This document shows positions 17,600-32,921 of a stretch of 46,039 nt of DNA, in pieces; the stretch's first letter is position 1, and each line of letters opens with the position of its first letter. The position numbers were made by a program, and so were the translations under genes. This DNA is from Myxococcaceae bacterium. GTDB lineage: Bacteria > Myxococcota > Myxococcia > Myxococcales > Myxococcaceae. Location of the stretch: NCBI GenBank assembly GCA_016793095.1, contig JAEUJQ010000049.1, forward strand, positions 1 through 46,039, in the 5' to 3' direction. The notes beneath the pieces are model-generated. The model ran no database searches, was not told the origin of the DNA, and saw only the letters and a program-made list of their open reading frames with translations.

Positions 17600-19342
17600 T
17601 CATCGCTCCTCGAGCAGGACCTTCAGCTCGCGGATTCGCCTCGTCACCTCGTCGCGCTCGAGCTTCTGGAACACCTCGGGCAGCAGATCGCGGCTCGTGC
17701 ACTCCTGCACCGCCACCAGGTTCTGCAGCTCGATCTCCAGCGGGTAGCTGGGCGGCACGAAGTCCTTCACCACCGCCTGCACGTCCTCCACCGTCACGTG
17801 CTCGCGCCCATCGGTGGCCGCCTTGAACTTCGAGCGGATCAGCATCGCCTCGATGTCGGCGCCCGAGAACGGGTGGCCGTTGGTGAGCTTCGAGAAGTCG
17901 GGCACCTCGACCTGCACCTTCGTCTTCTTCTGCATCGCCTTGAACAGCTCGTCCCGCTCGGCATCGGTCTGCGGGTAGAAGAGGGCGAGGTGCTCCTCGG
18001 CGCGGCCCTGACGCTTCAAGTCGATGGGCAGGAGGTCGGGCCGGCACGTCAGCAGGAACCAGACGATCTTCCCGCGGAACTCGGTGTTGCCCATGAACGA
18101 GGCGATGGCGGCGAACACGCGGCTCGAGGTGCCTGAGTCTCCGCCCGCGTCGCGATCGCCCAGGAACGCGTCGGCCTCGTCGATCATCACCGCCACCGGC
18201 CACAGCGCCTTGAGCAGGTTGAAGATCTTCTCGAGGTTCGACTCGGTGACGCCCTGCCACTGGCTGCGGAAGTTGAGGAACTTCACGCAGGGAATGCCGA
18301 TCTCTCCGGCGAAGCAGGTGACGAGGAAGGTCTTGCCGGTGCCGACGGGCCCCGACACGAGGTAGCCCATGGGCATCACCTCGATGCGGCCCTTCTTCAG
18401 CATGGTGGCCGCGTCGCGCAGCATCTTCTTCGCCTTGCCGTGCCCCGCCACCACGTCGAGCGTCCACGCGGGCTCGATGAACTCGAGCAGCCCGTGGCAC
18501 TCGGCCTGGATGATCTCCTTCTTCTTCTCCTTCAGGATCTCGGGCGTGATGCGCGTGCCCGACTCGAGCGCCTCGGTGAAGAGCCGGTCGAGGTTGATGC
18601 GAGAGAGGCCCGCCGTCATCTTCGCCAGCGGCGCGATCCCCACCTCGGACACGGTGGACAGCTTCTTGCCCTCGAGCTTCCACTTCACGAAGTCGAGCCG
18701 CTCTTCCTCGTTCGGCAGGCTGATCTCGATGTTCGCGACGTAGGGGTTGCGAGACAGGCGCGCTGACACGTCGGCGAGGTTCTCGACGACCAGCACGATC
18801 GAGAGATCGCCCTGAAGGAACTGCGGGTCCTGGGCCCACTTGATGAGCGTCGCGAGGGTGAAGCGGTCTTCGGCCGACAGCGAGCCCATGTCGCCGGCGG
18901 GGGCGATCGTCTCGGCGAAGTCGATCACCAGCGCCATCGACCGGCCGTCGCTGACGCGCAGGCGCAGGTAGTTCTCGATGATCTGCAGCGCGCGACCCGG
19001 ATCCCTCGGCATCACCCGCGCGAAGTCGGTGCCGTACATCGCGTCGTACGAGGCCATCGCGCGCGAGAAGTCCTGCTGCGTCTCGGGCGCCTGCGAGCGG
19101 ATGCCCGACGATCGATCGTAGTAGAGGACGTGGTCACGCCCTCCGAACAGCTCGACCCCGAGGAACGTCTTCAGGTTCGCGAAGTCGCGACCGCCGTCGT
19201 CCTTCGTGACTGGCTGGAGATCGCGCACGGCGCCATAGACGATGAACGTCGAGACGGTGCGGGTGTAGTAGCGCTGCGCCAGCTTCTGCGCCCACGTGGG
19301 CAGCCCGGCGAGGGGATCTTCGTTCTTCCTGGTCTTGGCCAT
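17600..19342 (-). CDS. AAA ATPase with a degenerate N-terminal AAA-like half
   Basis: A 580-residue protein. The C-terminal half is a canonical AAA module: Walker A GPVGTGKT (331-338), Walker B VAVMIDEAD (384-391), a polar sensor-1 region (WFLLTCRPDLLPIDLKRQGR) and a C-terminal lid (HPFSGADIEAMLIRSKF). The N-terminal half contains a strand-helix pattern reminiscent of a second ATPase (ALVIDFAETIAPAGD, LVVENLADVSARLSRNP, ISLPNEEERLDFVKW) but has no Walker A, so it is probably a dead domain. The gene lies 9 bp downstream of the Ser/Thr kinase gene and should be co-transcribed. It may remodel protein complexes in the kinase pathway; the substrate is unknown. ATG 19342 has no clear Shine-Dalgarno. 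Confidence 0.88.
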   Translation of the reverse strand: MAKTRKNEDPLAGLPTWAQKLAQRYYTRTVSTFIVYGAVRDLQPVTKDDGGRDFANLKTFLGVELFGGRDHVLYYDRSSGIRSQAPETQQDFSRAMASYDAMYGTDFARVMPRDPGRALQIIENYLRLRVSDGRSMALVIDFAETIAPAGDMGSLSAEDRFTLATLIKWAQDPQFLQGDLSIVLVVENLADVSARLSRNPYVANIEISLPNEEERLDFVKWKLEGKKLSTVSEVGIAPLAKMTAGLSRINLDRLFTEALESGTRITPEILKEKKKEIIQAECHGLLEFIEPAWTLDVVAGHGKAKKMLRDAATMLKKGRIEVMPMGYLVSGPVGTGKTFLVTCFAGEIGIPCVKFLNFRSQWQGVTESNLEKIFNLLKALWPVAVMIDEADAFLGDRDAGGDSGTSSRVFAAIASFMGNTEFRGKIVWFLLTCRPDLLPIDLKRQGRAEEHLALFYPQTDAERDELFKAMQKKTKVQVEVPDFSKLTNGHPFSGADIEAMLIRSKFKAATDGREHVTVEDVQAVVKDFVPPSYPLEIELQNLVAVQECTSRDLLPEVFQKLERDEVTRRIRELKVLLEER

Positions 19343-19351
19343 GGTGCAGGT

Positions 19352-21343
<1,992 letters not shown>

Positions 21344-21574
21344 GGGCGGTTCCGACGTCGATGCACGATGCCGAGGCGCCGAGCGTACCCAAGGGTTCCG
21401 AAAAGGGGGGAAGGAACGGCAGCGCGCCGGGCCTGATGTGGGAGTGAGTACGCGCGCCAGCCGACCTGAGGCTCGCCGTACCCGCCGGTCACCCGCCACC
21501 CGTCAGCGGCTCGAGAAGCCAGAACGAAATGGCGCGGGTAGCGGCTGGCCACGCGAATGCAATCGGAAGCCGTC

Positions 21575-22216
21575 ATGCGCTCCCCGCTCTTCGCCGCTGC
21601 CCTGCTGTTCGCCGTGACCGCCTCCGCCGAGACCTTCCGCGGGCTCGATGTGGTGAACGTGTCGCTGGCGCGGCAGGTGATGACGGCCGAGGCGAACGCC
21701 GACCTGCGCGTCTCGGACCGCATGGTGATCGCGGTGCACGGCATCAGGCTCGAGCGCACCAGCCAGTCCTACTTCGGCAGCGCGCCGCTGGCGCTCGACG
21801 AGCCCTACATGGTGCGCGACGCGGCCGGCGCCGAGTACCGCATGTGGGTGCGCACCGTGGCGAACCGCCTCATCGTCGTCGAGATCCAGCCGCGCCAGCT
21901 CGCGGAGTCGAAGGACCCGCTGGTGGGCCGCTTCCGTGCCACCTCCATCACCATCGGCGGCAACGAGGCCCGCCCCACCTTCGGCGATCTGCGCCTGATG
22001 CCGGACGGCAGGTACTTCATGGGCGGCGCGAGAGGCCACTGGCAGTGGGCTGACGGGCAGCTCGTGCTCGACGGACCCGTCTCGTACTGGGGCAGCGGCG
22101 CCGTCTCGGCAGACGTCCGCTCCATCACCTTCACCTTCACCCGCGGCCCGGTGGAGTGGAAGGTGACGTATGAGCGCGTCGGCGAAGGCGGCGTCGATCC
22201 GGTCGCGCTGCGCTGA
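21575..22216 (+). CDS. Small secreted protein, unrecognised
   Basis: A 213-residue product from ATG 21575 (GGAAG 6 nt upstream); an in-frame ATG at 21557 would add six residues. Residues 1-19 are a signal peptide (RSPLFAAALLFAVTASAETF). The mature protein appears beta-rich (DLRVSDRMVIAVHGIRL, YRMWVRTVANRLIVVEIQP, GRYFMGGARGHWQWADGQL) and ends in ERVGEGGVDPVALR. The GHWQWADGQLVL segment recalls small periplasmic beta-barrel or lipocalin-like folds, but I assign no family. It is divergent from the kinase gene across about 230 bp. Its 3' end is partly duplicated just downstream. Confidence 0.75.
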   Translation: MRSPLFAAALLFAVTASAETFRGLDVVNVSLARQVMTAEANADLRVSDRMVIAVHGIRLERTSQSYFGSAPLALDEPYMVRDAAGAEYRMWVRTVANRLIVVEIQPRQLAESKDPLVGRFRATSITIGGNEARPTFGDLRLMPDGRYFMGGARGHWQWADGQLVLDGPVSYWGSGAVSADVRSITFTFTRGPVEWKVTYERVGEGGVDPVALR

Positions 22217-22335
22217 ACGCTGCCGGCGACTCGTGGTGACCTGTGCGGGCCTGGACGCGGTGCCGTCCGAGCGCGTGGGCGACGGCGGAGGCGCTCCGGT
22301 CGCGCTGCCATCGACTCGTGGTGACCTGTGCGGGC
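22172..22335 (+). repeat. Decayed tandem duplication of the upstream gene's 3' end
   Basis: The last codons of the secreted-protein gene and the following bases (22172-22250) recur with substitutions and a 12-bp deletion at 22269-22335. Shared blocks include GAGCGCGT, TCCGGTCGCGCTGC (22198-22211 and 22295-22308) and an identical 24-bp block (22227-22250 and 22312-22335). Offsets are 97 bp before and 85 bp after the deletion. Copy two would read ERVGDGGGAPVAL without the stop. The remaining gene-free bases up to 22524 show no other structure I can support. Confidence 0.75.
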
Positions 22336-22524
22336 GCAGACGAGCTGACGTCCGACCTGCACGTGGTGCTGCGCACGCGGCTCGAGCGCGCTCTCATCTC
22401 GGGCAGCCCCGAGGTGAACGACCTGGGACGAGCCGGGCCGAAGCACTTCTCTGGTTTGAGTCGGCTGCCGACGTCACTCACGGAGGGTGGAGCGACGCGT
22501 CAGCTGGCCCAGGAACGTCTCGTC

Positions 22525-23802
22525 TCAGCCGGCCAGCACCCGCACCGGGTCGGTCCGACTCGCGCGCCGGGCGGGAAGAAACGCTCCCGCAGCCGCCGCC
22601 GCGACCCCGAGCAGCACGCCGAACGCCAGCAACCAGGCCGGCCGCTCGAACCAGGTCTCGGGCTTGAAGGGGAACTCGGGCAGGAGCCTCGCAGCCGCCG
22701 CGTCGAGACCCGCGCCGCCCAGCACCGCGAGCGTCGTGCCCACCACCCCACCGACCAGCCCCAGCAGCAGCGCCTCGGCCAGCACCAGGCGGAACAACTG
22801 CGCGCGCGAGGCGCCGACCGCGCGCATCACGCCCAGCTCCTTCTCCCGCGCGCGCACCGACGCCGAGAAGGCGTGCGCGATGTTGAAGGCCGCCAACAGG
22901 CAGATCAGCACCGACAGAAGGGCCAGGCTCGAGGTGCTGATGGCCACCGCCGCGCCGGCGTTCTCGGCCATGCGTCGATCCTGATCGTCCACCCGCAGGC
23001 CCATGCCCTTCACCGCCGCGACGATGGCGGGCACCTGCGAGGGGTCGACGGCCTTCAGGCTGAGGGCGGTGAACGTCTTCGCGTCGAGGTTGGCCGCTGC
23101 GTTGAGCCGCTTCGCCGTCTCGAGCGGAATGGTGATGCCCGCGAGCAACCCCCGGTCCGACACCCCCACGAGCTGCCCCTGCGCCGGAATGGCCGAGGCG
23201 TTCGGCGGCGTGCTGGTGACGAAGCTGCGGTTGAAGTCGATGGGGAAGATGAAGCCGGCCAGCAGCTGCGCGGACAGCTGCGGCAGCGAGCGCTGAGGAG
23301 CGAAGCTCTTGTTGTAGATCTCGAGCAGCCGCGTGGACGCGATGGCGGGGATCGGCTTGTCCGGCCCCGGATCCACGAACTCTCCCAACATGACGTCGCC
23401 CTTCACGAAGTCGGGCTCGACGCCCACCGCGAGGATCTCGAGGCCCATGTGCAGCGGGCGCCCGAAGAAGTCGCCCCGGTAGATGGTGACGGCCGGCGCG
23501 CGCACGTTCATCTTCTTGAAGGCGCGCTCGACGCCGGGCAGCGCCTCGAGCCGGGCCACCGTCGCCTCGTCGAGCGCTCCGCCGCCCAGCAGGCCGAACG
23601 ACAGCTGCGCCGGCACCACCTCGACGAGGCTCGTGTCCACCGGGAAGATCTTCTCGCGCACGATGCGGCCGACGCCGAGCCCCAGGGACACGAAGAAGAC
23701 GAGCGCCGCCACGCCCACCGCCAGCCCGAAGGCCGAGGAGACCGCCGTCCGGCGATCCCGAGCCAGCGAGAGCTTCACCAGGGGCCAGAGCGCGCCGCTC
23801 AC
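22525..23802 (-). CDS. ABC transporter permease, FtsX/MacB type
   Basis: A 425-residue permease from GTG 23802, which overlaps the ATPase stop by GTGA. The layout is one N-terminal membrane helix (SAFGLAVGVAALVFFVSLGLG), a periplasmic domain of about 230 residues (around 55-285), then three C-terminal helices: ISTSSLALLSVLICLLAAFN, LVLAEALLLGLVGGVVGTTL and WLLAFGVLLGVAAAAAGAFL. The signature VRAREKELGVMRAVGASRAQL of FtsX-family permeases follows the second helix. It ends with PARRASRTDPVRVLAG, the typical terminus. Such proteins power lipoprotein release, envelope remodelling or efflux by mechanotransmission rather than classical import. It is the last gene of the six-gene operon. Confidence 0.92.
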   Translation of the reverse strand: MSGALWPLVKLSLARDRRTAVSSAFGLAVGVAALVFFVSLGLGVGRIVREKIFPVDTSLVEVVPAQLSFGLLGGGALDEATVARLEALPGVERAFKKMNVRAPAVTIYRGDFFGRPLHMGLEILAVGVEPDFVKGDVMLGEFVDPGPDKPIPAIASTRLLEIYNKSFAPQRSLPQLSAQLLAGFIFPIDFNRSFVTSTPPNASAIPAQGQLVGVSDRGLLAGITIPLETAKRLNAAANLDAKTFTALSLKAVDPSQVPAIVAAVKGMGLRVDDQDRRMAENAGAAVAISTSSLALLSVLICLLAAFNIAHAFSASVRAREKELGVMRAVGASRAQLFRLVLAEALLLGLVGGVVGTTLAVLGGAGLDAAAARLLPEFPFKPETWFERPAWLLAFGVLLGVAAAAAGAFLPARRASRTDPVRVLAG

Positions 23803-24479
23803 GACAGCTTGCCCCCGGTGAGCGTCAGCACCCGCGAGGCGGCGGCGCGCAGCCGGTCCTCATGGGTCACCGCGACGATGGTGAGGCCCTGCTGGTTGAG
23901 CGCCTTGAAGAGGGCCACCACCTCGTCCGCGGTCGCCGTGTCGAGGTTGCCGGTGGGCTCGTCACACAGCAGCACCCTGGGCGACGAGAACAGCGCGCGG
24001 GCGATGGCCACCCGCTGCCGCTCTCCGCCCGACAGCCGGCCAGGGGAGCGCGCCGCGTGCGCCGCCAGCCCCACCCGCTCGAGCGCCTGCCGCGCCTGCC
24101 CCTCGAGCCCGCCCACGCGCCTCGCCGAGAACCGCGCAGGCAGCAGCACGTTCTCGAGCGCTGACACGCCTGACAGCAGATGGAACGACTGGAACACGAA
24201 GCCCACCGTCTCGTTGCGAAAGCGCGAGAGCGCCGCGTCGTCGAGGCCGTCGAGGCGCAGGCCCGCCACCGTCACCTGGCCGCGATACCCGGTGTCCAGC
24301 CCGCCCAGCACGTGCAGCAGCGTCGACTTGCCGCTGCCTGAGCGCCCCACGATGGCGACGAACTCACCGGCGTTCACCTCGAGGGACGCGTCGTCGAGCA
24401 CGGTGAGCTGGCCGCGGGCGCCGTCGTCGTACGCGCGCACGAGGTGCCTCGCCTCGATCACCCGCTCGGGCCCGCTCAC
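23799..24479 (-). CDS. ABC transporter ATP-binding protein, MacB/LolD type
   Basis: A 226-residue ATPase from GTG 24479 (GTGA overlap with the lipoprotein stop). It shows Walker A GRSGSGKS (45-52), the Q-loop in VFQSFHLLSGVSALENV, signature LSGGERQR (149-156), Walker B LLCDEPTGNLD (170-180) and the switch His in VAVTHE. The ALENVLLP and DEPTGNLD wording is typical of the LolD/MacB/FtsE subgroup that pairs with FtsX-type permeases. It would energise the adjacent permease. The whole frame is clean, with no accessory domain. Confidence 0.94.
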   Translation of the reverse strand: MSGPERVIEARHLVRAYDDGARGQLTVLDDASLEVNAGEFVAIVGRSGSGKSTLLHVLGGLDTGYRGQVTVAGLRLDGLDDAALSRFRNETVGFVFQSFHLLSGVSALENVLLPARFSARRVGGLEGQARQALERVGLAAHAARSPGRLSGGERQRVAIARALFSSPRVLLCDEPTGNLDTATADEVVALFKALNQQGLTIVAVTHEDRLRAAASRVLTLTGGKLS

Positions 24480-26056
24480 TGGACCTTCGCCGCCGGCGCC
24501 GCGAGGGCGAGCGAGAGCTTCAGCGCCGCCACCACCTTGCCGTCCTTCGCGCCCGCGGTGAACGAGATCGACTCGAGATCGTCGGTCGCGTCGATCCACC
24601 GCACCGTCGTGGGCTTGAGCGCAAAGCCGCCGAGCCCCCAGGCGCTCTCGGGCAGCGCGCGCACCGAGGCGCCGAGCTTGCCGAGATCGATCGACACGTC
24701 GAGCGCGTGGGTGGCCAGCGCCTCAGCCTTCGGGGCCGCCTCCGAGGCCAGCACCGCGTCGAGCCGCTGCACTGGAGAGCCGAAGGCCACCGCGGCCCCC
24801 TTCGGGCCGAAGTGCACGCCCTGCCCCTGCGACCAGGTCGTGAAGTAGAGGTCTCGGCCGTCGCGCTGCTGCTTCTCGAGCTTCGCCCCGAAGCGCGGCG
24901 CGACCTGCGCCACCTTCTCGAGCGTGGGCATGATGACGTCGGCGCTCGTCACCGGCGCGAGGCCCGAGAGGTGGGCGTAGGCGAACGGGTTCGTCTGGCG
25001 GATGTCGAAGGACGGCACGCCCCGGTCCATCGGCGGTCGATCGGCCAGGGACAGCGAGAACACCGTGCCCGGCTGCACCCGGTCGAGCACCTCCGTCTTC
25101 AGCTCGAAGCCGCCGAGCTCGAAGGCCCGCGCGAGGTGGGGGCCGAGCAGCTCACGCGAGATCGACGCCAGCCCCTTCGCGTCGCCGCTGTAGCGCCCCA
25201 CGAGGAACGCGTCGGCCGGCAGCACCGGCGAGAGGTCAGGCGCCTTCTGCGCCGTGAGCGCCGCGAGCAGCTCGGGCTTGCCCTTCCACTGCCCGCGGAC
25301 GCGCACCTCCGCCGCCGTGTTGGACAACGAGAGCGTGACGAAGGCGTTGAGCAGCGGAGTGGCCTGCAGCACCGGGCTGCCCGAGCCGAGCCACGCGAAG
25401 ACGTCGTGGGGCCCCGCGCCCTCGAGCGCGCTCGCGAGCTCGGTGTCCTTCGACAGCCGATCGGTCTCCCCGAGCGACGCCGCCTGGCCGAGCTTCGCGA
25501 TGGTCTCGTCGCGCCCGACGAAGGCCCAGCCGTTGGCCAACGTGTAGCCGAGCCGGGGTGGCTGGCCCTGCTCGCGCGCGAACGTCTTCACCGTCACCGC
25601 GCCCTGCTGCTGCGAGGCGCCAGCGCCCGCGCCGAACCGGCTGAACGAGATGCCCTCGAGGCGGGCGTGCAGGGCCGAGGCGTCCTTCACCGGGAGCACG
25701 AGGTAGACGTCGCCCGTGAGCAGCACGGCCGCGCCGAGCCCGCGGTTGGGATCGAGCCCGGCCTTCTCCAGCTCGGCGGGGCTGCGCAGATCGACGCCGA
25801 GCTGCCGCACCACCTCGTCCGCGAACGCCTTCGCGCTGGCGAAGCCCTGCAGCGGCGCCACGAAGCCGGCCACCTTCAGCTGCTCGAGCAGCACCAGCTT
25901 CGCGCCCGAGTCCGCGAGCTTCGGCACCACCACCACCGCCACCGCGCCGCGCGGCAGCACGTCGATGAGGCCTGACTGACCAGCCTCGACCTTCTTGCCG
26001 CACTTCGAGCAGCCCGCGAGCGCGAGCGCCACCACCAGCAGCAGGCGCCGCGTCAT
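24476..26056 (-). CDS. Large periplasmic lipoprotein in the PspA/ABC operon
   Basis: A 526-residue lipoprotein: MTRRLLLVVALALAGC with a good lipobox (C16), then SKCGKK. The body alternates short strands and helices: LIDVLPRGAVAVVVVP near the start, a repeated theme of LANGWAFVGRDETIAKL and GPKGAAVAFGSPVQRLDAVL, and a beta-rich end. This pattern (lipobox, D-x-LP-x-ga-vaVV-x-P, then paired A-F-x-G blocks) resembles DUF3352-like proteins, but I am not certain. It overlaps both neighbours by 4 bp (ATGA at its start, GTGA at its end), so it is translated as part of the operon. Probably the extracytoplasmic partner of the ABC ATPase and permease. Confidence 0.82.
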   Translation of the reverse strand: MTRRLLLVVALALAGCSKCGKKVEAGQSGLIDVLPRGAVAVVVVPKLADSGAKLVLLEQLKVAGFVAPLQGFASAKAFADEVVRQLGVDLRSPAELEKAGLDPNRGLGAAVLLTGDVYLVLPVKDASALHARLEGISFSRFGAGAGASQQQGAVTVKTFAREQGQPPRLGYTLANGWAFVGRDETIAKLGQAASLGETDRLSKDTELASALEGAGPHDVFAWLGSGSPVLQATPLLNAFVTLSLSNTAAEVRVRGQWKGKPELLAALTAQKAPDLSPVLPADAFLVGRYSGDAKGLASISRELLGPHLARAFELGGFELKTEVLDRVQPGTVFSLSLADRPPMDRGVPSFDIRQTNPFAYAHLSGLAPVTSADVIMPTLEKVAQVAPRFGAKLEKQQRDGRDLYFTTWSQGQGVHFGPKGAAVAFGSPVQRLDAVLASEAAPKAEALATHALDVSIDLGKLGASVRALPESAWGLGGFALKPTTVRWIDATDDLESISFTAGAKDGKVVAALKLSLALAAPAAKVQ

Positions 26057-26874
26057 GAGCGCACCTTCACGGCCGGCGCGCCAGGCGTCGACGAGAGCTC
26101 CTCGGTGACGACCATGAACGACTCCATCTCGCGCACGGTCTCTTCGGTGGCGGCGACCTCGGCGGACAGCGCGTCGAGCTGCCGCGTCACCGTCTGCGGG
26201 TCTCTGATGGCGATGGACTGCTCGTGGGTCAGGCGCAAGAGGTCCTCGATGCTCGCGAGTTGATGGCTCACCACTTCCCGGCTCTCTTCGGCCTGGACGA
26301 AGCGCGTCAGCCGTTTCTTCAGGATGTCCACGCGACGGGCCTTCACCTCTCTGAGCCGCTCGTTCTTCTCGGCCTCGAGCTCGGCCTCGAGCTCCTCGAG
26401 CTCCTTCCCGACGGCCTGCCGGTCGGCGGCATTCAAGAACTTCCGGTAGCTGTTGAGGGTCGTGACGAGCCGCAGGAACGAGGTGAGGAGCGTGTCGAGG
26501 CGCTGCTCGCTCGACGCCTGCAGCACACCGCCGCCGGGCAGCTTCCCGTACTCGTCGAGGATCCGCCCCTTGAGGGCGCGCAGCTGCTCGTAGTGCTCGC
26601 GTTGGCTGGGCGCGAGCTCTGCCAGCAGGCTCTCGACCTCTTCCGGGCTCGCGACGTCGCCCGACGTCTGCGCCTCGGAGTTCGCGCGCACGGCCCGCCG
26701 GAACGAGGGCATGGTGGAGAGGAAGGCCAGGTACGCCGCCGAGGCCCCACCGGCCGCCGCGAGCGGCACCCAGTCGCCGATGATGAGCGAGGCCACCCCG
26801 CCCGCTGCGAGGGCGAAGAGGTTGGCCGGCATCAACAGCGCGGCCTTCAGGTAGTTGGGCGATCGTGTGCTCAC
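26053..26874 (-). CDS. Membrane protein with long cytoplasmic coiled coil
   Basis: A 273-residue protein from GTG 26874. Two hydrophobic segments lie near the N-terminus (AALLMPANLFALAAGGVASL and VPLAAAGGASAAYLAFL). The remainder is highly charged and helical (for example KELEELEAELEAEKNERLRE), with heptad-like spacing over about 100-260. No enzyme motif is seen. The gene overlaps the substrate-binding-like gene by GTGA at its start and the lipoprotein gene by ATGA at its end. In the context of PspA, also a coiled-coil membrane protein, it may tether PspA or sense membrane state; this is inference. Confidence 0.8.
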   Translation of the reverse strand: MSTRSPNYLKAALLMPANLFALAAGGVASLIIGDWVPLAAAGGASAAYLAFLSTMPSFRRAVRANSEAQTSGDVASPEEVESLLAELAPSQREHYEQLRALKGRILDEYGKLPGGGVLQASSEQRLDTLLTSFLRLVTTLNSYRKFLNAADRQAVGKELEELEAELEAEKNERLREVKARRVDILKKRLTRFVQAEESREVVSHQLASIEDLLRLTHEQSIAIRDPQTVTRQLDALSAEVAATEETVREMESFMVVTEELSSTPGAPAVKVRS

Positions 26875-28010
26875 GGGCGCTGCGTGGCGGAAACGTACTT
26901 CAAGGCGCCGAGGTCCGCAGTCTCCTCGGCGGTCGGGACGGTGGAGGGGCCGGTGAGCTTCTGCGCGAGCGCCACGGCCGACTGGTACAGCTCGGCGTAG
27001 GTGACGGGCGCCTCACCCGACAGCCCGAAGAAGGCCAGGTTCTCGCGCATCGTGGCGGGAGGCGCCGCGAGGATCGCCTCGCTCGGATCTCCGAGCTGGG
27101 GCGCGAAGGAGCCCAACACCCGCGCAGCCTCCTCGGGCGCCTTCACCACCAGCGCGCCGGCGTCGAGCGCTCCCCGCAGCAGCCGCCGCACCGCGTCCGG
27201 GTAGCGCGCGGCGAAGTCACCCCTGGCGACCAGCACCGTGGCGAGCAGGTGCGGTGCGTCGGCCGTCGTCGCCATGATCGAGCCTCCCAGCTCGCGCACC
27301 ATGGGGTGCACGTCACCCACCAACCCCGCCACCACGTCCGCCTTCCCGCTCTGCAGCGTCGCCCCTGCCTGAAGCGACGACTCGAGGGGCACCCACGTCA
27401 CCTCGCGCATCGACAGGCCAGCCCGCGAGAGCACCCAGAGGGCGAAGTAGTGCCCGGGGCTGCGCGGCTCGGTGGCGAGGCGGCGGCCCTTGAGCTGGGC
27501 GGGGGTGAGCGTGCCGCTCCGCGTGGCCAGCACGTCCTGCCCGCGGCTGCGGCCGAGCAGCAGCACGGTGCGAGGCGCCGCGTCGCGCAGGGGCGCCGCG
27601 GACATGCCCAGCGTCGAGACGGACAAGGCGGCGACATCGACCCCGCCGTTGTCACCGCCCTTCACCAGCGCGCGGCGCAGGCCGTCCTCGGTGTCGAAGC
27701 GCACCACCTTCACGTCGAGCGCGTAGGCCGACCGGAACAGCCCGGGGCGCTCCGCGTCACCGGCAGCCCACACCAGCGGCGCGATGGTGCCCCTCGGGGT
27801 CACTCCGACGAGGAGCGGTCGCGTGGGAATGGAGGCGACGTCATCGACCGGCGCGGTGACCCCGGCGGGGAAGTCACCGGCGGTCAACCTCGGAGCGCGG
27901 CCCTGCACCCGGTCGCGTAGCCGCTCGACGTACCCGAGCCGCAGCGCCAGCAACGCGCCAGCGCCCAGGCTGAGGAACAACACGGTGGCGACGAAGCGAC
28001 GCCCGCGCAT
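26871..28010 (-). CDS. Periplasmic substrate-binding-like protein (NMT1/SsuA type)
   Basis: A 379-residue protein with an N-terminal anchor or signal (RFVATVLFLSLGAGALLALRL). The fold pattern is that of type-2 periplasmic binding proteins of the NMT1/taurine group. LVWAAGDAERPGLF, VKVVRFDTEDGLRRALVKG, VDVAALSVSTLGM, then LKGRRLATEPRSPGHYFALW, ALSMREV-like strands and ATLQSGKADVVAGLVGDVHP are seen in order. Such proteins deliver small organic solutes to ABC importers, but the operon's permease is of FtsX type, so the usual importer partner is missing. A sensory role is possible. It lies 7 bp after pspA and overlaps the next gene by GTGA. Confidence 0.8.
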   Translation of the reverse strand: MRGRRFVATVLFLSLGAGALLALRLGYVERLRDRVQGRAPRLTAGDFPAGVTAPVDDVASIPTRPLLVGVTPRGTIAPLVWAAGDAERPGLFRSAYALDVKVVRFDTEDGLRRALVKGGDNGGVDVAALSVSTLGMSAAPLRDAAPRTVLLLGRSRGQDVLATRSGTLTPAQLKGRRLATEPRSPGHYFALWVLSRAGLSMREVTWVPLESSLQAGATLQSGKADVVAGLVGDVHPMVRELGGSIMATTADAPHLLATVLVARGDFAARYPDAVRRLLRGALDAGALVVKAPEEAARVLGSFAPQLGDPSEAILAAPPATMRENLAFFGLSGEAPVTYAELYQSAVALAQKLTGPSTVPTAEETADLGALKYVSATQRP

Positions 28011-28017
28011 GGGGCCG

Positions 28018-28752
28018 TCACTTCACCTCGACCTTCTTGCCGATGGTCTTCTCGCCGGTGGGCGAGACCTCCGAGACGGGCGCGGGGCTGTCGAGCCCCA
28101 TCTCCATCTTGAACTGCTTCACCAGCTCGGCGGCCTGGAGCTGCTCGGCCTCCTCTTCGATCTTGATGCGCTCGTGATCGACCGACTCCAGCGCCATCTG
28201 CATGCGCGCCTCGTTGACGGCGGTCTGCTCCTCGACCTTCCGCAGCATCTCGTCGTGGGTCGCGTCGATGCCGGCCACCTCGAACGACTCCATGGCGTCG
28301 GCCACCTTCGCCTGCCACTTGGCCCGCCGCGCGTCCCGGATCGCCGACATCGCCTCGGCGGTCTTCTTGTCCTTCTCGCGCATGAACGCCTTCTTGACGT
28401 TCAGCGCCTTGTCGTAGGCGGCGCGCGCCGTCTGCAGCTGCGCCTCGTTGCGGGCCAGCGCGCCCTTCTCCATCTGGAGGCGGGTCGCGTACTGCGCCGC
28501 GAGATCGTCACGCCCGCCCTGAATGGCCGCCTTCACCTTGGCCGTGAGATCGTTGACCTCGGTCTTGTACTTGGAGTTCTCCTTCTCGAGGAGCGTGACG
28601 TTCGCCCGAACCATGGCGATCGACTCGTTCATCTTGGGGACCTGGTCGTTCAGATCCCTGATGTTCTGCTCGAGGATCAGCTCGGGGTCTTCGATGGTGC
28701 TGACGAAGAACCCGACGAAGCTCCGCATCGCCCGCTTGAAGCGTTGCCACAT
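28018..28752 (-). CDS. pspA: PspA/IM30-family membrane-stress protein
   Basis: A 244-residue coiled-coil protein from ATG 28752 (GGGAGA upstream). It opens with WQRFKRAMRSFVGFF, an amphipathic helix that would bind membranes. IEDPELILEQNIRDLNDQV follows, matching the PspA signature of an acidic pair then Q-x-I-R-D-L. Helices run to about residue 225 with the usual alternation of Glu, Lys and Ala, and the C-terminus is a flexible stretch (SEVSPTGEKTIGKKVEVK). PspA proteins form ESCRT-III-like assemblies that stabilise damaged inner membranes. It is the first gene of a six-gene operon. No sigma-54 -24/-12 promoter or pspF-like gene is apparent, so control differs from enterobacteria. Confidence 0.88.
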   Translation of the reverse strand: MWQRFKRAMRSFVGFFVSTIEDPELILEQNIRDLNDQVPKMNESIAMVRANVTLLEKENSKYKTEVNDLTAKVKAAIQGGRDDLAAQYATRLQMEKGALARNEAQLQTARAAYDKALNVKKAFMREKDKKTAEAMSAIRDARRAKWQAKVADAMESFEVAGIDATHDEMLRKVEEQTAVNEARMQMALESVDHERIKIEEEAEQLQAAELVKQFKMEMGLDSPAPVSEVSPTGEKTIGKKVEVK

Positions 28753-31132: not shown

Positions 31133-32464
31133 TCAGCCCAGACGCTCGAGGAGCCGGGCGGCGTGGGCCCTGGCGGCTCTCCGGACGGCGGTGGGATCCA
31201 TCGTGGTGGGCTGGCGATCGCGCAGCACGACCTGACCGTCGATGACGACGTGTCGAACGTCTCGCGACTGGGCCGAGTAGACGATCGTCGCGACGGGGTC
31301 GTCGGACACGGGCGTCAGGTGGGTGCCGCCGACGTCCACCAGCGTGAGATCGGCCTTCTTGCCTACCTCGATGGAGCCGACCTCATGCTCGAGCCCCAGG
31401 GCGCGGGCGCCGTTCACCGTCGCCAGCTCGAGCGCCTGCATGGCCGGGAAGCCGGTGGGGCCCACGCGCGGCAGGTGAATGAGCGCGGCGAGCCTCAGCT
31501 CGTGGAAGATGTCGAGGGTGTTGTTGCAGGGGGCTCCGTCGGCGCCGAGGCCCACGGTGACGCCCTGCTGCACGAGCTCGGGGATCTTCGCGAGGCCCGA
31601 GGCCAGCTTGAAGTTCGCGCTGGGGCAGTGGCAGACGCAGGTGCGCGTCTCCCGCAAGAGGCGCTGCTCTTCGGTGGTGAGCCACACGCAGTGCGCGAGC
31701 GTCGTCTGCGGGCCGAGCAGCCCCAGCTCGTTGAACCAGGCGACGTTGTCGTAGCCGGTCTTCTCGCGCACGAGATCGCACTCGGTCGGGTTCTCGCTCG
31801 CGTGCGTGTGAATGCGCACGTCCTTCGCCCTCGCGAGCTCGGCCACCCTGCGCATCAACCCCTCGGTGCACGACAGCACGAAGCGGGGCGCGAAGGCGTA
31901 GGTGAGCCGGCCGTTCTCGGTGCGGTGCCACTTCTCGAGCAGCCGAACGCTCTCGGCGAGGCTGTGCTCCGTGGACTCGCGCAGGCCCGAGGGCACTCCC
32001 TGCCCAGCGTCCATCATGCACTTGCCGCCCACCAGCCGGATGCCGGCGTCGCGCGCCGACTCGAACACCGCGTCGTAGTGACGCACCGAGCCCATGTCGA
32101 GGCAGGCGGTCGCGCCCGACGAGATGAGCTCGAGGAAGGTGAGGTCGGCCGAGGCGCGCATCGAGGCGGCGTCGTGCGAGGCCTCGAAGGGCCAGATGCG
32201 CTCGCGCAGCCAGTCGAGCAGCTCGAGCCCGTCGGCGTGGTTGCGGCACAACGTCTGGCACGCGTGCAGGTGGGAGTGGATGAGGCCCGGCAGCACGACG
32301 AGCCCGCGGCCGTCGATGACGCGGGTGGCGTGGCGGCGGCGGGCGCGCGAGTGAGGGCCCACCGAGGCGATGCGGTTTCCGTCCACCAGCACGTCGGCGT
32401 CGCGCAGGACCTCCCGCGAGGCGTTCATGGTGACGACGGTGGCGTTGCGAATGAGCAGCTCCAC
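31133..32464 (-). CDS. mtaD: Amidohydrolase, S-adenosylhomocysteine/5'-methylthioadenosine deaminase type
   Basis: A 443-residue protein from GTG 32464, where the typical start VELLIRNATVVTMN begins. Metal-site motifs of the amidohydrolase fold are intact: PGLIHSHLH (H65, H67), HTHASEN (H219, H221, E224), LAHCVWL (H258) and GLGADGAPCNN (D309). The C-terminal ALEHEVGSIEVGKKADLTLVD-type segment (core GSIEVGKKADL) rebuilds the small beta domain. This motif set fits the MtaD/DadD group, which deaminates MTA, SAH or 5'-deoxyadenosine in the SAM salvage pathways; related guanine or chlorohydrolase-like enzymes cannot be excluded. It is divergent from the membrane winged-helix gene with only 46 bp between starts, and no ribosome-binding site is visible. 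Confidence 0.85.
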   Translation of the reverse strand: MELLIRNATVVTMNASREVLRDADVLVDGNRIASVGPHSRARRRHATRVIDGRGLVVLPGLIHSHLHACQTLCRNHADGLELLDWLRERIWPFEASHDAASMRASADLTFLELISSGATACLDMGSVRHYDAVFESARDAGIRLVGGKCMMDAGQGVPSGLRESTEHSLAESVRLLEKWHRTENGRLTYAFAPRFVLSCTEGLMRRVAELARAKDVRIHTHASENPTECDLVREKTGYDNVAWFNELGLLGPQTTLAHCVWLTTEEQRLLRETRTCVCHCPSANFKLASGLAKIPELVQQGVTVGLGADGAPCNNTLDIFHELRLAALIHLPRVGPTGFPAMQALELATVNGARALGLEHEVGSIEVGKKADLTLVDVGGTHLTPVSDDPVATIVYSAQSRDVRHVVIDGQVVLRDRQPTTMDPTAVRRAARAHAARLLERLG

Positions 32465-32476
32465 GGCGCAGGCATG

Positions 32477-32504
32477 TTGGCTCACGCCGCGGCAGAGGTA
32501 CACT
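32477..32504 (+). promoter_or_regulatory. Candidate promoter for the membrane winged-helix gene
   Basis: TTGGCT (32477-32482), a 16-bp spacer and TACACT (32499-32504) resemble sigma-70 boxes. The -10 ends 6 nt before the GTG at 32511, so the predicted start of transcription coincides with the start codon and the mRNA would be leaderless. The element also sits in the 46-bp gap shared with the divergent amidohydrolase gene. Confidence 0.45.
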
Positions 32505-32510
32505 TTTCCC

Positions 32511-32921
32511 GTGCTGACGCTGCGCGCCCTGACCTTCCTCATCGACCTGCCCGGCCAGCCGCCCGACTACGTGCGGCCGCCGAGCGCCACCAGCCCGCGC
32601 TACATCGAGCTGCTCGAGAACAACACGCACCTCGTCTACCCGGGCCTCGCGCTGCTCGTGCTGGTGCTGATCGTCCTCGGCATCCTCCAGGCCTGGCGCA
32701 GCGAAGACATGGACGGCCTGCAGAAGGCCGAGCTCAAGCGCGAGATCATCAAGGAGCTGCGGCGCGAGGTGCACGGGCTGACCGCCGACACGCTCTCGAA
32801 GGCCGTGGGCATTCCGTCGCTCAAGCTGCTCCGGATCCTCGAGGAGATGCAGACCGACAGCATCCTCGAGTCGCGCACCGACACGCGACGCATCACCACC
32901 TGGCGGATGAAGGGCCTCTGA
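32511..32921 (+). CDS. Membrane-anchored protein with probable winged-helix domain
   Basis: A 136-residue protein from GTG 32511. An N-terminal polar stretch (PGQPPDYVRPPSATSPRYIE) is followed by one strong membrane helix (LVYPGLALLVLVLIVLGIL). A charged helical part with AELKREIIKELRREVHG comes next. The end, LTADTLSKAVGIPSLKLLRI followed by SRTDTRRITTWRMKGL, resembles a winged helix-turn-helix: helix, turn at VGIP, recognition helix, wing with RTDTRRITTW. It could be a membrane-tethered regulator or a protein-interaction wing. No Shine-Dalgarno. Its 3' end converges with the next minus-strand gene (14 bp apart). Confidence 0.75.
   Translation: MLTLRALTFLIDLPGQPPDYVRPPSATSPRYIELLENNTHLVYPGLALLVLVLIVLGILQAWRSEDMDGLQKAELKREIIKELRREVHGLTADTLSKAVGIPSLKLLRILEEMQTDSILESRTDTRRITTWRMKGL

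Follow-up and report, generated by a model that had tools for sequence, protein, structure and literature searches.

A pspA locus with an FtsX-type ABC module in a Myxococcaceae contig

Contig JAEUJQ010000049.1 of the Myxococcaceae bacterium assembly GCA_016793095.1 (46,039 nucleotides; this whole stretch is referred to as the window in the rest of the text) carries six genes in one direction that code for a PspA/IM30 protein (pspA), a binding protein (sbp), a coiled-coil protein with an N-terminal membrane part (cc), a lipoprotein (lipo), an ATP-binding cassette (ABC) ATPase (abc) and a permease (perm) (Table 1). An earlier note, made from the sequence alone, had described them as a six-gene operon without psp regulators and had proposed that they form an envelope-stress or membrane-repair machine. 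The six genes, their order, strand and spacing are as claimed, with 7 bp between pspA and sbp followed by four overlaps of 4 bp through perm. The products of pspA (PspA_IM30, PF04012, 68.1 bits for a Pfam cut-off of 33.9), sbp (NMT1, 34.2 for 20.5), abc (ABC_tran, 112.8 for 25) and perm (FtsX, PF02687, 69.1 for 25.5) were assigned to families, and lipo and cc matched no Pfam family above cut-off.

Table 1. Genes and features of the pspA locus, in window coordinates (aa, amino acids; TM, transmembrane; AF2, AlphaFold2 model)
Feature	Description	Position	Strand	Basis and remarks
pspA	divergent operon-type PspA/IM30, 244 aa	28018..28752	minus	Pfam
PspA C-terminal tail	MGLDSPAPVSEVSPTGEKTIGKKVEVK, possible docking tail	28021..28101	minus	pattern match
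sbp	NMT1/SsuA-type periplasmic binding protein with N-terminal membrane anchor, without OmpA domain	26871..28010	minus	Pfam, NCBIfam
cc	N-terminal membrane segment(s) and long helical hairpin (predicted), 273 aa	26053..26874	minus	AF2 and alignment
lipo	lipoprotein with predicted TP0453-like fold	24476..26056	minus	AF2, structure match, lipobox
abc	LolD/MacB/FtsE-type ATPase, GTG start	23799..24479	minus	best NCBIfam match is LolD
perm	FtsX-type permease, 425 aa	22525..23802	minus	PF02687; four hydrophobic segments
kin	Ser/Thr protein kinase with one TM segment and PEGA domain	19352..21388	minus	
dAAA	double AAA+ protein	17600..19342	minus	N-terminal domain without P-loop; C-terminal domain Cdc48/p97/Afg2-like
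dAAA P-loop	sole P-loop, GPVGTGKT, residues 331-338	18329..18352	minus	in the C-terminal half in 13/13 aligned dAAA

The genome that contains the window (8.8 Mb, 98.65% complete) codes for a single PspA, with one match to PF04012. The absence of psp regulators holds at the locus, where none of pspB, pspC, pspD, pspE and pspF was found and Pfam identifies the neighbours as other genes; elsewhere in the genome, PspB had no match, PspC is encoded on another contig (C47), and PspF was not searched for. The window has in common with the E. coli Psp system (pspF, pspABCDE) a PspA family protein, but one from another branch of the tree (see below) and without the usual partner genes alongside. Weak matches to a sigma-54 promoter (−24/−12) numbered 5 in the window, compared to 14 expected, with none at pspA, and no Rfam RNA was matched.

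The ATPase and permease belong to the same families as those of the LolCDE, MacB and FtsEX pumps, from which the locus differs by its single permease, by scores below the family cut-offs, by the company of PspA and by the lack of a MacA-type adaptor among the eight genes listed in Table 1. One explanation would be that they are simply the housekeeping LolCDE of the organism, as the closest model to abc is LolD. However, abc reached 223 bits for an NCBIfam cut-off of 307.75 and perm 52.9 for 362.45, while perm ranked only eleventh among the LolCE matches of its own genome (48.7 bits) and contig C9 carries a better LolCE candidate (224.3 bits, still below the cut-off), which makes this explanation hardly credible.

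Gene order is conserved across genera and families

Of 60 genomes, that of the window included, 47 contain a PspA, and the surroundings of pspA were fetched for 40 of the 46 other positive genomes. Counting each gene only in loci with enough fetched sequence, sbp was retained in 31/40, cc in 36/39 (three of the 36 detections being short matches of 29-40 bits), lipo in 30/35, abc in 29/33 and perm in 27/33. Among the 31 loci with at least 6.5 kb of downstream sequence, all six genes followed the window order in 17, or in 18 with L035, a locus of normal order that was scored out of order solely because stop-to-stop frames were sorted by start. The order pspA-cc-lipo-abc-perm, followed by a kinase gene (kin) and lacking sbp, also occurs in L262 (genome G150), which belongs to another order-level relative of the same class. 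The six-gene grouping is not due to chance. Its order is conserved across genera and families, well beyond the strain, which is the opposite of the strain-confined order that the earlier note had named as grounds for refuting its reading.

Genes were lost in blocks. The four loci of family f7 (L054, L056, L057 and L058) lack sbp and full-length cc and keep lipo-abc-perm together. L039 and L041 lack lipo-abc-perm, L039 having pspA-sbp-cc-(kin) with the dAAA gene described below; L055 has pspA alone, and L052 and L059 lack perm. Since sbp is absent next to pspA in 9 of the 40 loci and replaced in L037, it is dispensable in the window-type operon. The gene that stands between pspA and cc in L037 (3324-4121, plus strand, 265 aa) is, by eye, what we take to be a zinc carboxypeptidase-like gene. 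In L054, L056 and L057, just one gene of about 65 codons, weakly cc-like, was seen between pspA and lipo.

Slow decay of synteny could by itself leave genes adjacent without any joint function. Many of the loci come from one family, and an amidohydrolase gene too is found upstream of pspA in 14 of them, as such decay would predict. Yet the genes overlap, and the gene immediately upstream of window pspA, used as a control, was retained in just 9 of 40 relatives' loci, against 27-36 of 33-40 for the operon genes. Moreover, equivalent units exist in other phyla, and sister lineages lose blocks rather than having the genes dispersed at random. Adjacency without joint function is therefore very unlikely.

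Beyond perm: a kinase and a Cdc48-like double AAA+ protein in the same unit

Although the six genes are real, the operon described in the earlier note was cut short. In four sister genomes (L032, L033, L064 and L065), perm is followed by kin and then by a gene coding for a 580-aa double AAA+ protein (dAAA), with gaps of about 55-120 bp each, whereas in the window roughly 1 kb of inserted sequence parts perm from kin and dAAA. The six-gene boundary is the product of this strain-specific insertion, and the real unit includes kin and dAAA, both of which were overlooked in the earlier note because a plus-strand gene of the insertion separates perm from kin.

The most constrained protein of the set is dAAA, with a mean column identity of 81% over five rows. 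Its best solved relatives in phmmer searches were Afg2 (3e-32) and Cdc48 (5e-31), with p97 also among them. Because a profile of the N-terminal half still matches p97 (E 3.6e-7) and this half has no P-loop, it is a degenerate (dead) AAA domain, the C-terminal domain being live and Cdc48/p97-like. The two halves gave no hhalign alignment with each other (probability 0.4), and Pfam detected AAA and lid domains only in dAAA, with no MIT domain. The arrangement resembles the ESCRT-III/Vps4 systems of archaea and eukaryotes in that the gene for an ESCRT-III superfamily scaffold lies beside one for an AAA+ ATPase of the Cdc48/Vps4 kind, but dAAA differs from Vps4 by its tandem AAA domains and by the missing MIT match. 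Its position beside an operon PspA makes dAAA a concrete candidate ATPase that is directly testable, and it probably powers the system.

A second version of the operon, with an importer-type module

Classes of the phylum other than that of the window have the same core around an importer-type ABC module. L107 contains, in order, pspA and the genes for a 586-aa NMT1+OmpA binding protein, a TauC/SaoP-like BPD permease, a TauB-like ATPase, cc and dAAA. The binding protein of this version has an N-terminal membrane anchor in addition to OmpA, and its cc is related to that of the window over the full length (hhalign probability 98.5).

The importer-type locus set comprised the best 80 of 523 dAAA relatives, ranked by likeness to the importer-type dAAA, six of which lie on the same contigs as loci fetched otherwise. 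On the dAAA strand, 65 of the 80 loci have pspA, 52 sbp, 50 the ATPase, 47 cc and 46 the BPD permease, and 37 have all six genes. When the count is restricted to the 40 loci flanked by 5.5 kb or more on each side, 37 have pspA and 26 the full set. In 40 of the 65 loci pspA lies directly upstream of dAAA, which is the Planctomycetes arrangement. The FtsX permease and lipo were found in none of the 80 loci on the dAAA strand, which is partly the effect of selecting the set towards the importer version. The pspA-bearing loci belong to Planctomycetes, Acidobacteria, Gemmatimonadetes, Myxococcota, Riflebacteria (L180) and Elusimicrobia (L198), and dAAA without pspA in the retrieved stretch was found in Lysobacterales (L170, L186) and in a gammaproteobacterium (L183). 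In L180 and L198 a window-like PspA stands with importer-type genes, which links the two versions of the operon.

Both versions can also be found in one genome. Genomes of family f3 carry a window-type operon (L046, L052) and a separate importer-type operon devoid of pspA (L256, L257), and the window's own genome has a pspA-less importer operon on contig C47 (L124: 6917-11887) that codes for an OmpA-NMT1 protein, a BPD permease, an ATPase and cc. The pspA position of the C47 operon is occupied by a 237-aa coiled-coil gene with no solid Pfam match, and this first gene may act as a stand-in for PspA. The C47 binding protein was found in 20 of 60 relatives, its own genome included, 17 of them in family f1 and three, more distant, in f3.

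It thus seems that PspA joined an FtsX-type module, taking copies of sbp and cc along and leaving the importer behind, and this transfer would explain the odd pairing of an NMT1 protein with an FtsX permease. The earlier note had remarked that NMT1/SsuA-type proteins are not normally used by FtsX-type pumps; the NMT1 protein is no novel partner of such pumps but a piece of the importer-type version, and we rejected the pairing as a new kind of pump. Although sbp matches the NMT1 profile expected of an SsuA/TauA-type binding protein, the permease alongside it is FtsX and not a cognate BPD permease. Throughout the exchange of one ABC type for the other, the core of PspA, cc and dAAA persists, and the swap offers a natural experiment in which the function of the core can be separated from the transported solute.

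The NMT1/SsuA-type sbp and the TauB- and TauC-like parts of the importer-type operon are what one would expect of a sulfonate-, taurine- or nitrate-like uptake system that happens to include PspA. However, the window version has neither the importer permease nor the importer ATPase, its sbp is missing or replaced in the loci mentioned above, and an OmpA domain with a membrane anchor would be odd for a free-moving uptake protein. We consider nutrient uptake an unlikely function of the locus.

The association is in part a known one. Section 18 of Ravi et al. (PMC11237479) devotes two sentences to PspA and TM-Snf7 homologues found with a double AAA+ protein, and mentions longer operons to which an ABC ATPase, a permease and a PBPB-OmpA protein are added (example, OGG56892.1). 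That operon and the window share PspA, a membrane coiled coil, a binding protein, an ABC ATPase and permease, and an AAA+ protein whose N-terminal AAA is dead, whereas in the window an FtsX permease and a LolD/MacB ATPase replace the importer parts, OmpA is lacking, a TP0453-like lipo (see below) and a kinase are added, and dAAA is set apart by the insertion. In the passages of the main text of PMC11237479, FtsX is mentioned once, in a different context, and no mention of an FtsX/lipoprotein/kinase version was found; passages of PMC9239133, a 2022 survey of Psp systems, likewise contained none of these associations. The class as a gene neighbourhood was therefore already known, including the theme of PspA with a TM coiled coil, a double AAA+ protein, an ABC ATPase, a permease and a binding protein, while these passages yielded neither the FtsX/lipoprotein version nor its link to the importer nor the shared PspA tail (see below). 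The deltaproteobacterial example of the first of these papers, AKJ06548.1, may be a window version, its accession series being presumably that of Archangium.

Predicted folds of lipo and cc

The lipo of the window has the lipobox LAGC, and 21 of 25 aligned rows have a lipobox. The AF2 model of lipo (predicted local distance difference test, pLDDT, 87.8) matched TP0453 of Treponema pallidum with a Z score of 9.5 over 219 residues (root-mean-square deviation 4.6, 9% identity); the four listed TP0453 rows scored 8.5-9.5 and the next other fold 4.9. Foldseek also found TP0453 (E 7.7e-5). As modelled, lipo has a TP0453-like fold, in a protein of different size (526 versus 250 residues). To our knowledge, TP0453 has no link with either ABC systems or PspA. 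Passages of PMC5421087 describe it as a proposed lipid carrier that inserts into the outer membrane at its inner surface.

The locus could then be a pump for lipid or lipoprotein trafficking, in which the LolD/FtsX pair passes lipid to lipo for the outer membrane and PspA merely guards a leaky transporter by sealing the inner membrane around it. The LolD-like ATPase, the LolCE-like permease and the TP0453 fold are consistent with such a pump, as is the cohesion of lipo-abc-perm in the f7 loci from which sbp and cc have vanished. However, PspA, cc and dAAA are kept elsewhere with an importer-type ABC, which makes it improbable that the substrate of the pump defines the system, and L039 has the core genes without lipo-abc-perm. 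We find this explanation rather doubtful, but the strongest of the alternatives weighed here.

The AF2 model of cc (pLDDT 77.4) shows a membrane part at the N-terminus and, beyond it, a long hairpin of helices. The sequence has one clear hydrophobic stretch (residues ~14-37) and the model has helices H16-32 and H36-54, so that a membrane hairpin is likely. The best structural matches of cc were BAR domains (Z about 10) and other bundles (Z 8-11 overall), with CdvB2 at Z 8.1, a range that helical bundles commonly reach by chance, and Foldseek returned nothing below E 0.001. A second cc homologue was seen directly after cc in L046, L052, L059 and L061, which may be compared with the tandem Snf7 genes found elsewhere.

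PspA phylogeny, C-terminal tail and co-occurrence with dAAA

A tree of 116 PspA rows placed the importer-type proteins together (support 100/99) and the canonical ones together (100/97). Window-type and intermediate proteins were joined with just 94/65, in a tree whose bootstrap had not settled and whose branches are very long, so that any placement of window PspA on a parent branch would be provisional. Of 17 stretches with other PspAs, ten were used in the tree as canonical and two turned out to be window-like; the other five (L209, L221, L222, L223 and L224) gave no profile match and were dropped.

The C-terminal tail of PspA follows the pattern MG(L/M)..P....V....K.(L/I)G in 40/40 window-type, 56/63 importer-type and 2/4 intermediate proteins, and in none of the 11 canonical PspAs of the tree, E. 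coli among them; the pattern was devised after inspection of these same sequences. None of seven further PspAs, L221 among them, carried it, and none of the five dropped ones showed it. The PspAs of L221-L224, from genomes with a distant dAAA subfamily, were seen to have other short tails such as RTMG, KTL and KSM.

Across the 174 genomes of the phylum, dAAA was found in 132 at E 1e-20 (124 at E 1e-60 or better) and PF04012 in 140. In the 18 listed genomes of family f5, 17 have no dAAA orthologue and at least 16 no PspA, the exception being G085, which has both; this joint distribution speaks for the scheme proposed below.

A possible PspA-based membrane-remodelling machine

The genes and their conservation, the exchange of modules, the two protein folds and the pairing of one live with one degenerate AAA domain are the observations behind the scheme that we propose here, whose physical contacts, substrate, transport direction and role in envelope repair are all inferred. 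On the cytoplasmic side of the inner membrane, PspA would assemble into an ESCRT-III-like scaffold, which membrane-anchored cc would hold or nucleate. Extraction of PspA subunits by dAAA would recycle or constrict the scaffold, as Vps4 does on ESCRT-III, and the ABC module would couple it to the far side of the membrane, i.e., to the periplasm and outer membrane. In most sampled phyla, this module would be an importer-type ABC whose binding protein is tethered to the inner membrane and, via OmpA, to peptidoglycan. In the window's class, the FtsX-type ATPase and permease would drive the TP0453-like lipo and probably move or sense lipid between the two membranes. The action of dAAA on PspA is the step that we trust most, and the cargo of the FtsX pump is the least secure. 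We give a remodelling machine with scaffold, dAAA recycling, cc tether and ABC coupling about an even chance of being the correct reading. It retains from the earlier note a conserved envelope-facing unit uniting PspA with an FtsX-type ABC and a membrane-tethered coiled coil, and it adds the Cdc48-like dAAA that the note had missed.

Several observations weigh against this scheme. Four f3 genomes (G044, G049, G053 and G056) have PspA and pspA-sbp-cc but no dAAA orthologue, two of them keeping lipo-abc too in the fetched stretch; dAAA is therefore not strictly required. The completeness of these genomes is 86-89% for two of them, with 89% for G053, and 96% for G049. In G085, no pspA lies in the 19 kb surrounding dAAA. 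The f7 loci dispense with sbp and full-length cc, and the PspA of L221, although from an importer-type operon, ends differently and without the tail pattern. By sequence, cc is related neither to PspA (hhalign probability 0.4) nor to Snf7, for which Pfam gave no match at E 0.1, and we rejected both relationships. Finally, the TM-scores between lipo and TP0453 are low (0.27/0.49).

A wider reading, which we advance only tentatively as a possibility, is that PspA, cc and dAAA represent a bacterial ESCRT-III/Vps4-type system present in at least six phyla, in which the ABC module would be exchangeable because it would serve as an ATP-driven coupler or sensor across the membrane and not as a transporter, the PspA tail serving as a handle for dAAA or for a partner.

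Other features of the window

The amidohydrolase gene upstream of pspA lies at 31133-32542 on the minus strand, and the similar-looking clusters upstream in 14 of the 40 relatives' loci were recognized by eye. The plus-strand gene of the insertion between perm and kin (21557-22216) codes for a 219-aa product without Pfam match. Diverged direct repeats (53 nt at 85% and 50 nt at 84%) occur in the insertion at 22162-22355, and both the gene and the repeats are missing from five sister loci (L032, L033, L064, L065 and L071).

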